The notes beneath the pieces are model-generated. The model did not search any database, was not told the origin of the DNA, and saw only the letters and a list, made by a program, of their open reading frames with translations. From contig NZ_LUKF01000002.1 of assembly GCF_001592755.1 (NCBI RefSeq), positions 66,332-121,367 of the forward strand: a stretch of 55,036 nt of DNA, read 5' to 3'. The stretch comes from Bdellovibrio bacteriovorus (GTDB lineage: Bacteria > Bdellovibrionota > Bdellovibrionia > Bdellovibrionales > Bdellovibrionaceae). The translations under genes were made by a program, and so were the position numbers. Shown here in pieces: positions 2,986-16,595 of the stretch (positions within the stretch are counted from its first letter, which is position 1; each line of letters starts with the position of its first letter).

Positions 2986-3011
2986 ACCAACACTCCTTTC
3001 GTTAGAAAAAA

Positions 3012-3053
3012 GCGTCGTCTTGTCTTGACCGGGTACGTCGCACATCGTCCGGG
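3012..3053 (-). promoter_or_regulatory. Guanidine-III riboswitch (ykkC-III) upstream of the SMR exporter
   Basis: Read on the minus strand, the segments CCCGGACGA, GTGCG, CGTACCCGGTCA, GACAAGACG and CGC occur in the order and spacing of the guanidine-III aptamer. The helix GCGACGT / ACGACGC forms with one A-A mismatch; the CCGG segments form the second pseudoknot helix. The aptamer ends with a T run about 13 bases before the AGGAG of the exporter gene. Guanidine-III riboswitches are known to switch on guanidinium exporters by freeing the ribosome binding site when guanidinium binds. Recognition is by eye from the known consensus; the fold was not computed. Confidence 0.92.
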
Positions 3054-3090
3054 TAAAGGTTCAAATGAAAATGAACCGAAATACAGCCTT

Positions 3091-13107: not shown

Positions 13108-14067
13108 TTAAGCGATGGGAAGGACGTCGAGATCTTTTTGGCGGATCTTGCGCAGTTCTTCCGGAATGCTTTTTAATATCGCTTCGCCTAAAGCTTCGAT
13201 CAATTCGTTTTTGTAGTGCTCGCGGCGATACACCAAACCGATTTCGCGGGCTGGGATCGGTCGTTCGAATTGCACTAAGTGACTGCGATCGCCAATGTGT
13301 TCGGCCGCTAGGTAAGGCAGCAAAGTGTAGCCTCCATACAGATCGACGAGGTTCTTCAGCGTTTCTAAACTTCCGCTTTCGAATTTATAACGTCGACCGC
13401 CGCCCTTATTTTTTCTGACCGAACACAGATCCAATACTTGATTGCGCAAGCAGTGACCTTCTTCCAGCAACCAAATATCTTCCATACTGAGACTTTGATA
13501 TTTTATCTTTTTCATTTGCGCGTACTCGTGATTTTTTTCGCACAAGACCGAAAATGGCTCATAGTACAAAGGGTACTCAAACATCTTTGCCATCTTCGTC
13601 GGCGTCGCTAAAATTCCAACGTCGATTTCATCGGCATTCAAGGCTTCCAAAATCTGATCGGTTTGCAGCTCTTTAATGTTGAGCTCTACCTCGGGAAACA
13701 GTTCTTCGCAAACTGGCAGCAGGCGCGGCAATAAATATGGAGCCACGGTGGGGATGACACCGACCACCAAGCTTCCCTGCTTCGCCCCCTTTTTTTCGTG
13801 TTGAATCAGACTTTCGATCTTTCGTGCCTCAAACAGGACTGTTTGCATTTGAGATATTAGCTTTTTTCCCATCTGTGTCAGAAGAACTGGCTTTTTCGAG
13901 CGGTCAAAGATCACGACGCCCAAATCCTCTTCTAATTTCTGGATCTGCATACTCAACGTAGGTTGAGTCACAAAGCAGGCCTCTGCCGCCTTCGCAAAAT
14001 GTCCGTATTTATGCACTGCCATGACGTATTCGAGCTGCGTCAAAGAAAAGTTCGTTTTTGGCGTCAT
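13108..14067 (-). CDS. oxyR: OxyR-type LysR-family peroxide sensor
   Basis: A 319-residue LysR-type regulator. The N-terminal winged helix (S-L-T-Q-L-E-Y-V..., H-F-A-K-A-A-E-A, V-T-Q-P-T-L-S-M-Q-I-Q-K-L-E) is followed by a substrate domain with the redox pair of OxyR: G-H-C-L-R-N-Q with Cys206 and, nine residues on, Cys215, equivalent to Cys199 and Cys208 of E. coli OxyR. It is divergent from ahpC, the classic OxyR target, which strongly supports the assignment. AAGGAG six bases upstream fixes the start. OxyR normally controls its own promoter from the shared intergenic region, where suitable half sites are present. Confidence 0.95.
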   Translation of the reverse strand: MTPKTNFSLTQLEYVMAVHKYGHFAKAAEACFVTQPTLSMQIQKLEEDLGVVIFDRSKKPVLLTQMGKKLISQMQTVLFEARKIESLIQHEKKGAKQGSLVVGVIPTVAPYLLPRLLPVCEELFPEVELNIKELQTDQILEALNADEIDVGILATPTKMAKMFEYPLYYEPFSVLCEKNHEYAQMKKIKYQSLSMEDIWLLEEGHCLRNQVLDLCSVRKNKGGGRRYKFESGSLETLKNLVDLYGGYTLLPYLAAEHIGDRSHLVQFERPIPAREIGLVYRREHYKNELIEALGEAILKSIPEELRKIRQKDLDVLPIA

Positions 14068-14266: not shown

Positions 14267-14833
14267 ATGCTTACTCTAATCAACACGCAAGTGCCTGAAT
14301 TCAAAGTTCAAGCTTATCACCACAATGATTTCAAAACTGTGACTCACAACGACCTTAAAGGTAAATGGTCTATCTTCTTCTTCTACCCAGCAGACTTCAC
14401 ATTCGTATGCCCTACTGAATTGGGTGACATGGCTGATAAATATGCTGATTTCCAAAAATTGGGCGTAGAAGTTTACGGTGTTTCTACAGACACTCACTTC
14501 ACACACAAAGCATGGCATGATGCTTCTGATACAATCAAAAAAATCAAATACCCAATGTTGGCTGACCCTACATTCCAATTGACTCGCGCTTTCGGCGTAC
14601 ACATTGAAGAAGAAGGTCTTGCTTACCGCGGTACTTTCCTAGTGAACCCTGCTGGTAAAATCGTACTAGCTGAAGTTCAAGACAACGGTATCGGCCGTAA
14701 CGCTGATGAGTTGTTCCGTAAAGTCCAAGCGGCTCAATACATCGCTGCAAACCCAGGCGAAGTATGCCCAGCTAAATGGACTCCAGGTAAATCTACTTTG
14801 AAACCAGGTCTAGACCTAGTTGGTAAAATCTAA
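14267..14833 (+). CDS. ahpC: Alkyl hydroperoxide reductase subunit C (2-Cys peroxiredoxin)
   Basis: A 188-residue typical 2-Cys peroxiredoxin, reducing H2O2, organic peroxides and peroxynitrite. The peroxidatic Cys48 is in D-F-T-F-V-C-P-T-E and the resolving Cys167 in G-E-V-C-P-A-K-W, the AhpC arrangement. GAAGGAG precedes the ATG by the proper distance. Codons look strongly optimised (AAA, GGT, GCT, ATC), as expected for a highly expressed protein. It is divergent from oxyR and followed by ahpF, its reductase, after a structured 160-base spacer. Confidence 0.97.
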   Translation: MLTLINTQVPEFKVQAYHHNDFKTVTHNDLKGKWSIFFFYPADFTFVCPTELGDMADKYADFQKLGVEVYGVSTDTHFTHKAWHDASDTIKKIKYPMLADPTFQLTRAFGVHIEEEGLAYRGTFLVNPAGKIVLAEVQDNGIGRNADELFRKVQAAQYIAANPGEVCPAKWTPGKSTLKPGLDLVGKI

Positions 14834-14852
14834 TTTAGATTTTCGCTTTCTT

Positions 14853-14914
14853 CCCCGCTGGCAACGGCGGGGACACTTTTCCACCGGAACTTCTTAGCAC
14901 GGAAAAGTGTTTTT
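14853..14914 (+). terminator. Hairpin pair after ahpC, likely partial terminator
   Basis: A GC hairpin CCCCGC/GCGGGG (14853-14858 with 14867-14872) is followed directly by a 10-bp stem ACACTTTTCC/GGAAAAGTGT (14873-14882 with 14901-14910) with an 18-base loop and five T (14910-14914). This looks like an intrinsic terminator of moderate strength. Its right arm can instead pair with a downstream segment (next entry). Confidence 0.6.
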
Positions 14915-14982
14915 ATAAGGGTCAAATCCGCGGCGTGAGCGCAAGTCAGCGACAAGACGTTGACCTTTATAAAAACACTTTT
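14903..14982 (+). promoter_or_regulatory. 23-bp hairpin just before the ahpF ribosome binding site
   Basis: Bases 14903-14925 pair with 14960-14982 over 23 positions with only one G-U pair, leaving a 34-base loop. The stem ends immediately before the GGAGG (14983-14987) of ahpF. The left arm overlaps the right arm of the preceding terminator-like stem, so the two structures exclude each other. The arrangement resembles an attenuator, an mRNA processing site, or a stabiliser that sets the AhpC to AhpF ratio. Pairing was checked base by base; energies were not computed. Confidence 0.7.
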
Positions 14983-14993
14983 GGAGGTTTGAA

Positions 14994-16559
14994 ATGTTGG
15001 ATTCTTCTCTCTTAGAACAACTCAAATCAGTCTTCGCATCTCTCGAAAATACAGTCGAACTTGTAGTTGAAAACAGCACGCACGACGACAACAAAGATCT
15101 TCTTGAAATGTTGAACGAAGTGGCGAGCACTTCAGATAAAATCACCGTTCGCAATAGCGGCGGTACTTCGCCGATGCCTCAGTTTCATATTGCTTACAAA
15201 GGCAAACCGACGGGCATCGTGTTTAAAGGCATTCCAGGTGGTCACGAATTCACTTCGTTGATCCTGGCGATCTTAAACACCGATGGCAAAGGAAAAGCTC
15301 TAGACAGCTTGATGGCAAGTCGGGTGAAGCGTTTGAAAAAGAACATCACGATTCAGTCTTACATCTCTTTGACCTGTGAGAACTGTCCTGACGTGGTTCA
15401 AGCCTTGAATCAATTTGCGCTTGTTCACGGAAGCATGCGCCATGAGATCATTGATGGTGGCTACGTTCAAGACGACGTTCAAGCTTTGGGCATTCAAGGT
15501 GTTCCAAGTCTGGTTGCGAATTCCAAGATGTTCCACTCGGGCCGCATTCAACTTTTGGATCTTTTAACGAAACTTGAAAACACATTCGGCGTGGACGACT
15601 CCGCTCCCGTTGAAGAGCCTGTGAACAAAAACTTGGGTCACTTCGATACTTTGGTGATCGGCGGTGGGCCTGCGGGCGCATCGGCTGCGATTTACACAGT
15701 TCGTAAGGGCTTAAGTGTTGCGATGATCACTGAAAAAATCGGCGGTCAGGTGCAAGAGACCAAAGGTATTGAGAATTTGATCTCTGTTGTTTACACGGAA
15801 GGTCCTCAATTGGCAGCGCAGTTGAATCAACACGTTGCTAGCTACCCGATTAAACTTTTTGAAAACCGTCGTGTTAAAAAGATTCACACGAAAGACGGCA
15901 TCAAAGCCATCGAACTTGAAAGTGGCGAACATCTGACAGCCGATGCGGTGATCGTGACAACGGGTGCGAAGTGGCGTGAGCTGAACGTCGAAGGTGAAAA
16001 AGACTATCTGGGTCGTGGCGTCGCTTACTGCCCTCACTGTGATGGTCCTTTCTACAAAGGTAAAAAGGTGGCCGTTATTGGTGGCGGAAACTCTGGCGTG
16101 GAAGCTGCGATTGATCTTGCCGGGATCGTTCGTGAAGTTGTGGTCTTTGAATACAACGATCAGTTGAAAGCGGATAAGATTTTGGTGGATAAACTTAAAT
16201 CTTTGCCAAACGCTTCGATCATCACGAGCGCAAAAACTCAGAAAGTGATTGGCGACGGCCAAAAGGTCACGCAATTGGAGTACGTGGATCGCAGTTTAGA
16301 TAAAACTGAAAAAATCGATCTTGATGGTGTCTTCGTTCAAATCGGTTTAGTTCCAAACAGTCAGTTCTTGAAGGACACTGTGAACTTAAGCAAGTTCGGT
16401 GAAATCATCGTCGACGAAAAAGGACGTACTTCTGAAGCGGGTATTTATGCTGCCGGAGACGTAACAACGACTCCGTACAAGCAGATCGTGATCGCCATGG
16501 GTGAAGGTGCTAAAGCCGCCCTCGCCGCCTTCGAAGATCGCATGTACAAACACAATTAA
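14994..16559 (+). CDS. ahpF: Alkyl hydroperoxide reductase subunit F
   Basis: A 521-residue flavoprotein disulphide reductase that passes electrons from NADH to AhpC. Order of parts: N-terminal tandem thioredoxin-fold domain with its redox pair C-E-N-C (Cys128/131), a FAD-binding V-I-G-G-G-P-A-G-A-S segment (about 221-230), the thioredoxin-reductase-like pair C-P-H-C (Cys346/349) and the NAD-binding V-I-G-G-G-N-S-G. Length is that of E. coli AhpF. Strong GGAGG seven bases before the ATG. Second gene of the OxyR-controlled ahpCF unit. Confidence 0.97.
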   Translation: MLDSSLLEQLKSVFASLENTVELVVENSTHDDNKDLLEMLNEVASTSDKITVRNSGGTSPMPQFHIAYKGKPTGIVFKGIPGGHEFTSLILAILNTDGKGKALDSLMASRVKRLKKNITIQSYISLTCENCPDVVQALNQFALVHGSMRHEIIDGGYVQDDVQALGIQGVPSLVANSKMFHSGRIQLLDLLTKLENTFGVDDSAPVEEPVNKNLGHFDTLVIGGGPAGASAAIYTVRKGLSVAMITEKIGGQVQETKGIENLISVVYTEGPQLAAQLNQHVASYPIKLFENRRVKKIHTKDGIKAIELESGEHLTADAVIVTTGAKWRELNVEGEKDYLGRGVAYCPHCDGPFYKGKKVAVIGGGNSGVEAAIDLAGIVREVVVFEYNDQLKADKILVDKLKSLPNASIITSAKTQKVIGDGQKVTQLEYVDRSLDKTEKIDLDGVFVQIGLVPNSQFLKDTVNLSKFGEIIVDEKGRTSEAGIYAAGDVTTTPYKQIVIAMGEGAKAALAAFEDRMYKHN

Positions 16560-16566
16560 TTAAAAC

Positions 16567-16595
16567 AAAAAAGGGACCTCGAAGGTCCCTTTTTT
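16567..16595. terminator. Bidirectional terminator between ahpF and the VOC gene
   Basis: AAAAAAGGGACC / GGTCCCTTTTTT with a 5-base loop, between convergent genes. Confidence 0.92.

Follow-up and report, generated by a model that had tools for sequence, protein, structure and literature searches.

What is the long hairpin between ahpC and ahpF of Bdellovibrio bacteriovorus, and how did it come to lie there? We analysed a window of 55,036 nucleotides (assembly GCF_001592755.1, contig NZ_LUKF01000002.1, positions 66,332 to 121,367 of the forward strand), for which an earlier note had proposed two mutually exclusive hairpins in the ahpC-ahpF spacer, acting by attenuation, RNase III processing or mRNA protection. 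The features of the spacer and its flanking genes are as follows.

14267-14833 (+): ahpC, peroxiredoxin of 188 aa (ORF; Pfam AhpC-TSA, 1.2e-40)
14852-14873 (+): first hairpin 3' of ahpC, 9 bp, -18.0 kcal/mol
14873-14882 (+): 5' arm of the short stem (inverted repeat; stem -10.9 kcal/mol)
14901-14910 (+): 3' arm of the short stem, followed by a T-run; 8 nt are common to the long stem
14903-14925 (+): 5' arm of the long stem of the element (inverted repeat)
14926-14959 (+): decayed apical core, 34 nt; G018 has the conserved core in this position
14960-14982 (+): 3' arm of the long stem of the element (inverted repeat)
14983-14987 (+): ahpF ribosome binding site GGAGG (read from the sequence; predicted probability of being unpaired 0.20)
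14994-16559 (+): ahpF, 521 aa (ORF; Pfam Pyr_redox_2, 6.1e-47)

The neighbourhood also contains a LysR-family regulator at 13108-14067 on the minus strand (Pfam LysR_substrate, HTH_1), divergent from ahpC in the position often occupied by OxyR, and a strong terminator-like hairpin with a T-run directly 3' of ahpF at 16567-16595 (+).

Both inverted repeats of the earlier note were recovered at its coordinates, the long stem pairing over 23 nt (96 % complementary, the single exception being a G-U pair) and the short stem pairing 10/10 around an 18-nt loop. Free-energy folding of 14840-15000 identified a strong and real hairpin, with -60.6 kcal/mol against -41.6 +/- 4.0 kcal/mol for 200 dinucleotide shuffles of the same segment (z -4.73), none of which equalled it. 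The view that the folds exclude one another held in so far as their arms overlap, but they do so by 8 nt only; by energy alone the long stem (-33.2 kcal/mol) dominates the short stem, and when the short stem is enforced (-57.9 vs -62.5 for the long fold) 15 bp of the long stem persist. The long stem ends right at the ahpF ribosome binding site as previously noted, its last base being 14982 with GGAGG directly after it and 6 nt upstream of the ahpF ATG, and the outer CTTTT of its 3' arm is like the sequence preceding this site in G002, a relative without the element. Control of the ahpF ribosome site by the hairpin was considered and rejected as showing no clear effect, the ranges of predicted exposure overlapping between the seven spacers with the element (0.04-0.24) and the 22 without it (0.02-0.92).

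In an attenuator the short stem would terminate transcription after ahpC and the long stem would be its antiterminator, the AhpC:AhpF ratio being set by a signal, and the arm common to both stems, the T-run and the retention of the short stem in G018 and G008 are all in keeping with such an arrangement. The short stem is terminator-like in its T-run, but its 18-nt loop departs from the GC-rich short-loop hairpin of an intrinsic terminator and it was not listed by a terminator scan allowing loops of 3-8 nt. Competition between the folds involves just 8 bp, so that exclusion is not strict and attenuation of the classical kind is unlikely. The order of synthesis, as read from the sequence, also argues against it, since transcription finishes the short stem and its T-run before it reaches the 3' arm of the long stem, and the long stem cannot therefore decide termination at the short one. 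The long stem is moreover missing from 22 of 29 ahpC-ahpF spacers. No sensor is indicated for the suggested response to a signal: no known riboswitch lies in the spacer, Rfam 15 at gathering score gave no match there or in nine copy-bearing loci, and the sole Rfam match of the window, at 3009-3081 on the minus strand, is to a guanidine-III riboswitch (49.9 bits). The attenuator reading was dropped because of the loop size, the energetics of the shared arm and the order in which the arms are made, and we regard it as very improbable.

The same spacer was read in relatives, an ahpF search over 59 genomes giving 29 loci that contain both ahpC and ahpF. A covariance model of a hairpin family, named R1 in the present analysis, finds the element in seven of the 29 spacers (G018, G023, G001, G005, G008, G000 and G015). 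The refuting condition of the earlier note, a pairing not conserved in close relatives, applies in part only by this count. The two closest relatives, G018 and G008, keep the hairpin with the arms of the window copy. Between G000 and G018 two pairs of the hairpin are changed on both sides in a compensatory manner, the loop differing greatly in length and sequence. G018 carries a full core on the same arms at the same place as the window copy, G005, G001, G023 and G015 have another long hairpin with different arms at the same spacer position, and a similar apical core is common to the spacer hairpins of G018 and of G005, G001 and G023; in G000, G008 and G015 the stem is kept and the core is shortened or lost. 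A GC-rich stem at the position of the first hairpin passes the cut-off in 23/29 spacers, and those of G022, G011, G010 and G021 (L024-L027) have a different hairpin followed by T's, with no R1 model match. The A/T-rich arms could be taken to favour a chance inverted repeat, an origin with a practically negligible probability given the folding result (z -4.73, 0/200 shuffles) and the compensatory change with the stem kept in G018 and G008; it is already refuted by the R1 family match and by the G018 ortholog.

The best explanation of the spacer hairpin is that a member of the dispersed R1 family has decayed there. An intact R1 copy is ~105 nt long, has ~23-bp arms with a small bubble, and carries at its apex a conserved core of ~55 nt which reads roughly CAAGGCG..AG.AGGAAG..GTAC..GTAC..CGACGACG..CAACG.AG. 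The arms differ in sequence at each locus with complementarity kept, and the core recurs elsewhere in these genomes on wholly different arms. The model was built from seven copies, two of them from ahpC-ahpF spacers, and at E<=0.01 has matches in 36 of 59 relatives, with 11 matches in the present genome and 27 in G011. Across the phylum (Bdellovibrionota) 47 of 240 genomes have matches at E<=1e-5, the phylum counts being lower bounds as stricter filters applied beyond 40 genomes. The window copy itself matches the model at 14903-14982 (+) with 36.7 bits (E 2.7e-6), placing it in the family with its core largely lost, although this score is not independent because the G018 ortholog was included in model training. 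Pairing is supported by double changes in 26 of 33 pairs in a MAFFT alignment of the seven copies (0/500 shuffles). In 60 rows fitted to the model, an alignment that by its construction leans towards structure, 31/33 pairs have double changes, 89.4 % of cells are paired and covariation is 0.671 vs 0.169 shuffled (0/500). We consider it likely that the 23-bp hairpin belongs, as a decayed copy, to a dispersed, non-autonomous and probably mobile family of Bdellovibrionota.

An exact-pattern scan of named genomes returned three stretches, all from Bdellovibrionia, the pattern being strict enough that this does not bound the range of the family. A phage or plasmid origin was considered and rejected: a phage search returned no match to R1, two exact patterns had no match in viral contigs, and plasmids gave two weak partial matches, from Halorussus (E 3e-3). 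No description of the family in Bdellovibrio was found in the open-licence papers that the searches covered. Tandem arrays of the core were observed at L105 4283-4472, L106 3390-3633, L204 4632-4948 and L205 4698-4977, those of L105 and L106 consisting of the core with its 5' arm as 82-bp units and the 3' arm present once. There is also an apparent second subfamily, mostly of 126-129 nt with a longer apical part and following the same strand rule as R1 (L103 2982-3107, L108 2971-3096, L111 329-436, L113 2825-2953, L114 446-574 and L120 2867-2994).

R1 is apparently mobile, with copies at sites that are empty in relatives. Two R1 copies of G000 are absent from its near relative G018. At the first compared site the model matched G000 alone among 18 loci, and at the second it matched G000 and G006, the latter with another stem (E 4e-4), among 16 loci. 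An apparent remnant of the outer right arm was found in G018 at the first site and in G008 at the second, so that some absences of R1 are deletions rather than ancestral emptiness, and no target-site duplication could be defined at these two sites. The G000 copies at L094 and L097 have the core and inner arms in common and differ in their outermost pairs, the pattern that a copy and the element it came from would be expected to show. In several genomes the second subfamily is present ~1 kb beyond the second compared site.

The orientation of R1 is strongly biased. In five genomes starting at dnaA, with the terminus taken as the half-way point from that start, R1 occupies the strand that runs against the fork in 56/62 strong copies and in 21/21 weak matches of 124-131 nt. 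For a broader view we used 92 strong copies, a fetched subset of all matches, drawn in unequal numbers from nine genomes (G000, G001, G004, G011, G012, G015, G017, G021 and G022), of which 22 were dropped as likely orthologous duplicates (flank score >0.62 or element score >0.9) to leave 70, among which some duplicates may remain. The core strand has negative GC skew in 61 of these 70 copies, and the window copy fits the rule (skew -0.02 to -0.04). With genes taken as ORFs from an in-house script, the right end of R1 falls -8 to +3 nt from the stop codon of an opposing gene in 33/70 copies and its left end at the stop of a sense gene in none of the 70; gene direction is correlated with replication direction, and the two are only partly separated here. 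The abutted stops are TAG in 20 cases, TAA in 13 and TGA in none, compared with 14 TAA, 5 TGA and 3 TAG for left-hand sense genes (TAG enrichment p 0.0007). TAG is not supported as a general R1 target: of 37 copies that do not abut a stop, 8 have it at the 5' end of the minus strand and 10 at that of the plus strand.

These placements bear on the possibility that R1 is purely a cis-acting RNA, a non-mobile RNase III or stability signal of 3'-UTRs and spacers that spreads or recurs through its usefulness at operon boundaries and before tRNAs, as might be expected from the 33/70 copies abutting stop codons. The strand that folds suggests otherwise. When arms were positioned to maximise Watson-Crick pairs alone, with G-T not favoured, G-T mismatches on the core strand exceeded A-C mismatches 60:16 (p 4e-7; 69 of the 70 copies usable); all copies were found with a core-strand model, a bias that we judge small as scores are far over threshold. 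From this excess it is apparently the core strand that folds, the one antisense to the abutted gene, strand-specific mutation being a conceivable alternative source of the asymmetry. At stop-abutting copies the ratio is 34:9 with the favoured strand again antisense to the abutted gene, leaving the mRNA as the A-C-mismatch strand, which speaks against R1 serving simply as a 3'-UTR structure. The occurrence of one core on different arms at unrelated loci, the sites empty in relatives and the replichore bias of copies are likewise difficult to reconcile with cis action alone.

The copies in the translation operon speak in favour of a cis-acting RNA. Of 22 tuf loci from the same genus (within L272-L294), 12 have an R1 copy 4-6 nt upstream of tRNA-Trp, always in sense, and 4 have a further copy whose end coincides with the first base of tRNA-Thr(GGT). 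The 12 orthologous tRNA-Trp copies have double changes in 9 of 22 stem pairs with the core kept, which argues that at least this copy would have a function at the RNA level, the simplest being that of a processing site. For the family as a whole we regard a purely cis-acting nature as unlikely. In L174 and L190 an R1 copy adjoins the end of what is presumably the RNase P RNA gene. Of the roles put forward in the earlier note, RNase III processing and mRNA protection are still plausible for ahpC-ahpF, whose co-directional genes are separated by a 23-bp stem and where the element has a relative in the tuf-tRNA spacer. The place of the hairpin within the ahpC-ahpF mRNA suggests that its role there is probably in mRNA processing or stability.

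R1 resembles REPINs, doublets of REPs that form hairpins with conserved REP ends and a variable middle (PMC3116915), in being a dispersed intergenic hairpin of ~100 nt that is non-autonomous, has compensatory change in its arms and some tandem clusters, and would move in a way linked to fork ssDNA; unlike the REPINs described there its arms vary and its middle is conserved, and no R1 copy lies beside 19/20 of the Y1 loci examined. The GTAG and CGTC REPs are 20-40 bp long, have stems of 5-13 bp and carry an unpaired tag at the terminus (PMC3733652, a paper whose main text does not contain the word 'Bdellovibrio'). R1 shares with these superfamilies (PMC3733652) palindromes placed mostly 3' of genes, between co-directional or convergent genes, and differs in its 105 nt, 23-bp stem and lack of a constant tag. 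In common with IS200/IS605 single-strand transposition as described in PMC6006769, R1 has hairpins and an orientation set by the replication strand; it differs from the account there in having no associated Y1 gene, no evident guide or target tetranucleotide, and a G-T-pair strand other than the strand on the lagging-strand template. E. coli REPs <=15 nt from stop codons lower translation (PMC12306157), and R1 is similarly placed against stop codons, although at a distance of ~0 and with fixed core orientation.

That R1 is an ordinary REP/REPIN moved by a RAYT (Y1) transposase would suit a palindromic, intergenic element with several copies per genome, near stop codons and with some (G/C)TAG feet, in a group where 31/34 genomes have PF01797 (Y1). 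The outer ends of R1 however vary around a conserved centre, some beginning (G/C)TAG, rather than carrying a terminal REP or a GTAG/CGTC tag. Of 20 fetched Y1_Tnp (PF01797) loci, at which a REP/REPIN would flank the RAYT gene, only one has an R1 copy within 1.5 kb, copy number correlates weakly with PF01797 count (rho 0.21, p 0.23 in 34 genomes; for the 24 genomes within the genus, rho 0.43, p 0.03), and some copy-bearing genomes lack PF01797, among them G012 with 18 R1 matches. A RAYT partner is not supported on these grounds, and no transposase partner was identified among the 20 Y1_Tnp loci and the PF01797 counts of 34 genomes. R1 behaves as REPINs and other single-strand MITEs do, yet departs from REPINs in two respects, its ends and its want of a repeat-flanked RAYT gene; that it is a conventional RAYT-driven REP/REPIN seems rather improbable.

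The preferred reading of R1 as a dispersed mobile family would have it spread at the replication fork as a nucleic acid that is single-stranded and structured, recognised through its core, with arms that have only to pair. The ahpC-ahpF spacer would then have received an old R1 insertion whose core was lost and whose stem persisted through compensatory change, and which in the mRNA most likely serves as an RNase III processing site or stability block between the messages. More speculatively, and to us a doubtful proposition as a whole, R1 may be a reverse REPIN with a conserved core and paired arms of free sequence, moving as the structured core strand (RNA or ssDNA, G-T-tolerant) into the new lagging strand at forks, its insertions surviving mainly at stops and tRNA genes and some becoming fixed as RNA-processing sites.

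If the preferred reading of R1 is right, predators of the Bdellovibrio group would carry an uncharacterised set of dispersed hairpins whose architecture is the opposite of a REPIN's and whose orientation is very strict, and which lie against stop codons and within the translation operon (tuf-tRNA). Covariation across hairpin copies need not then signify a regulatory RNA. The family would offer a testable handle on the spread of short palindromes for which no transposase is obvious, on how arms can be variable yet paired, and on how copies turn into RNA-processing sites, a change that the copy between ahpC and ahpF may have undergone.
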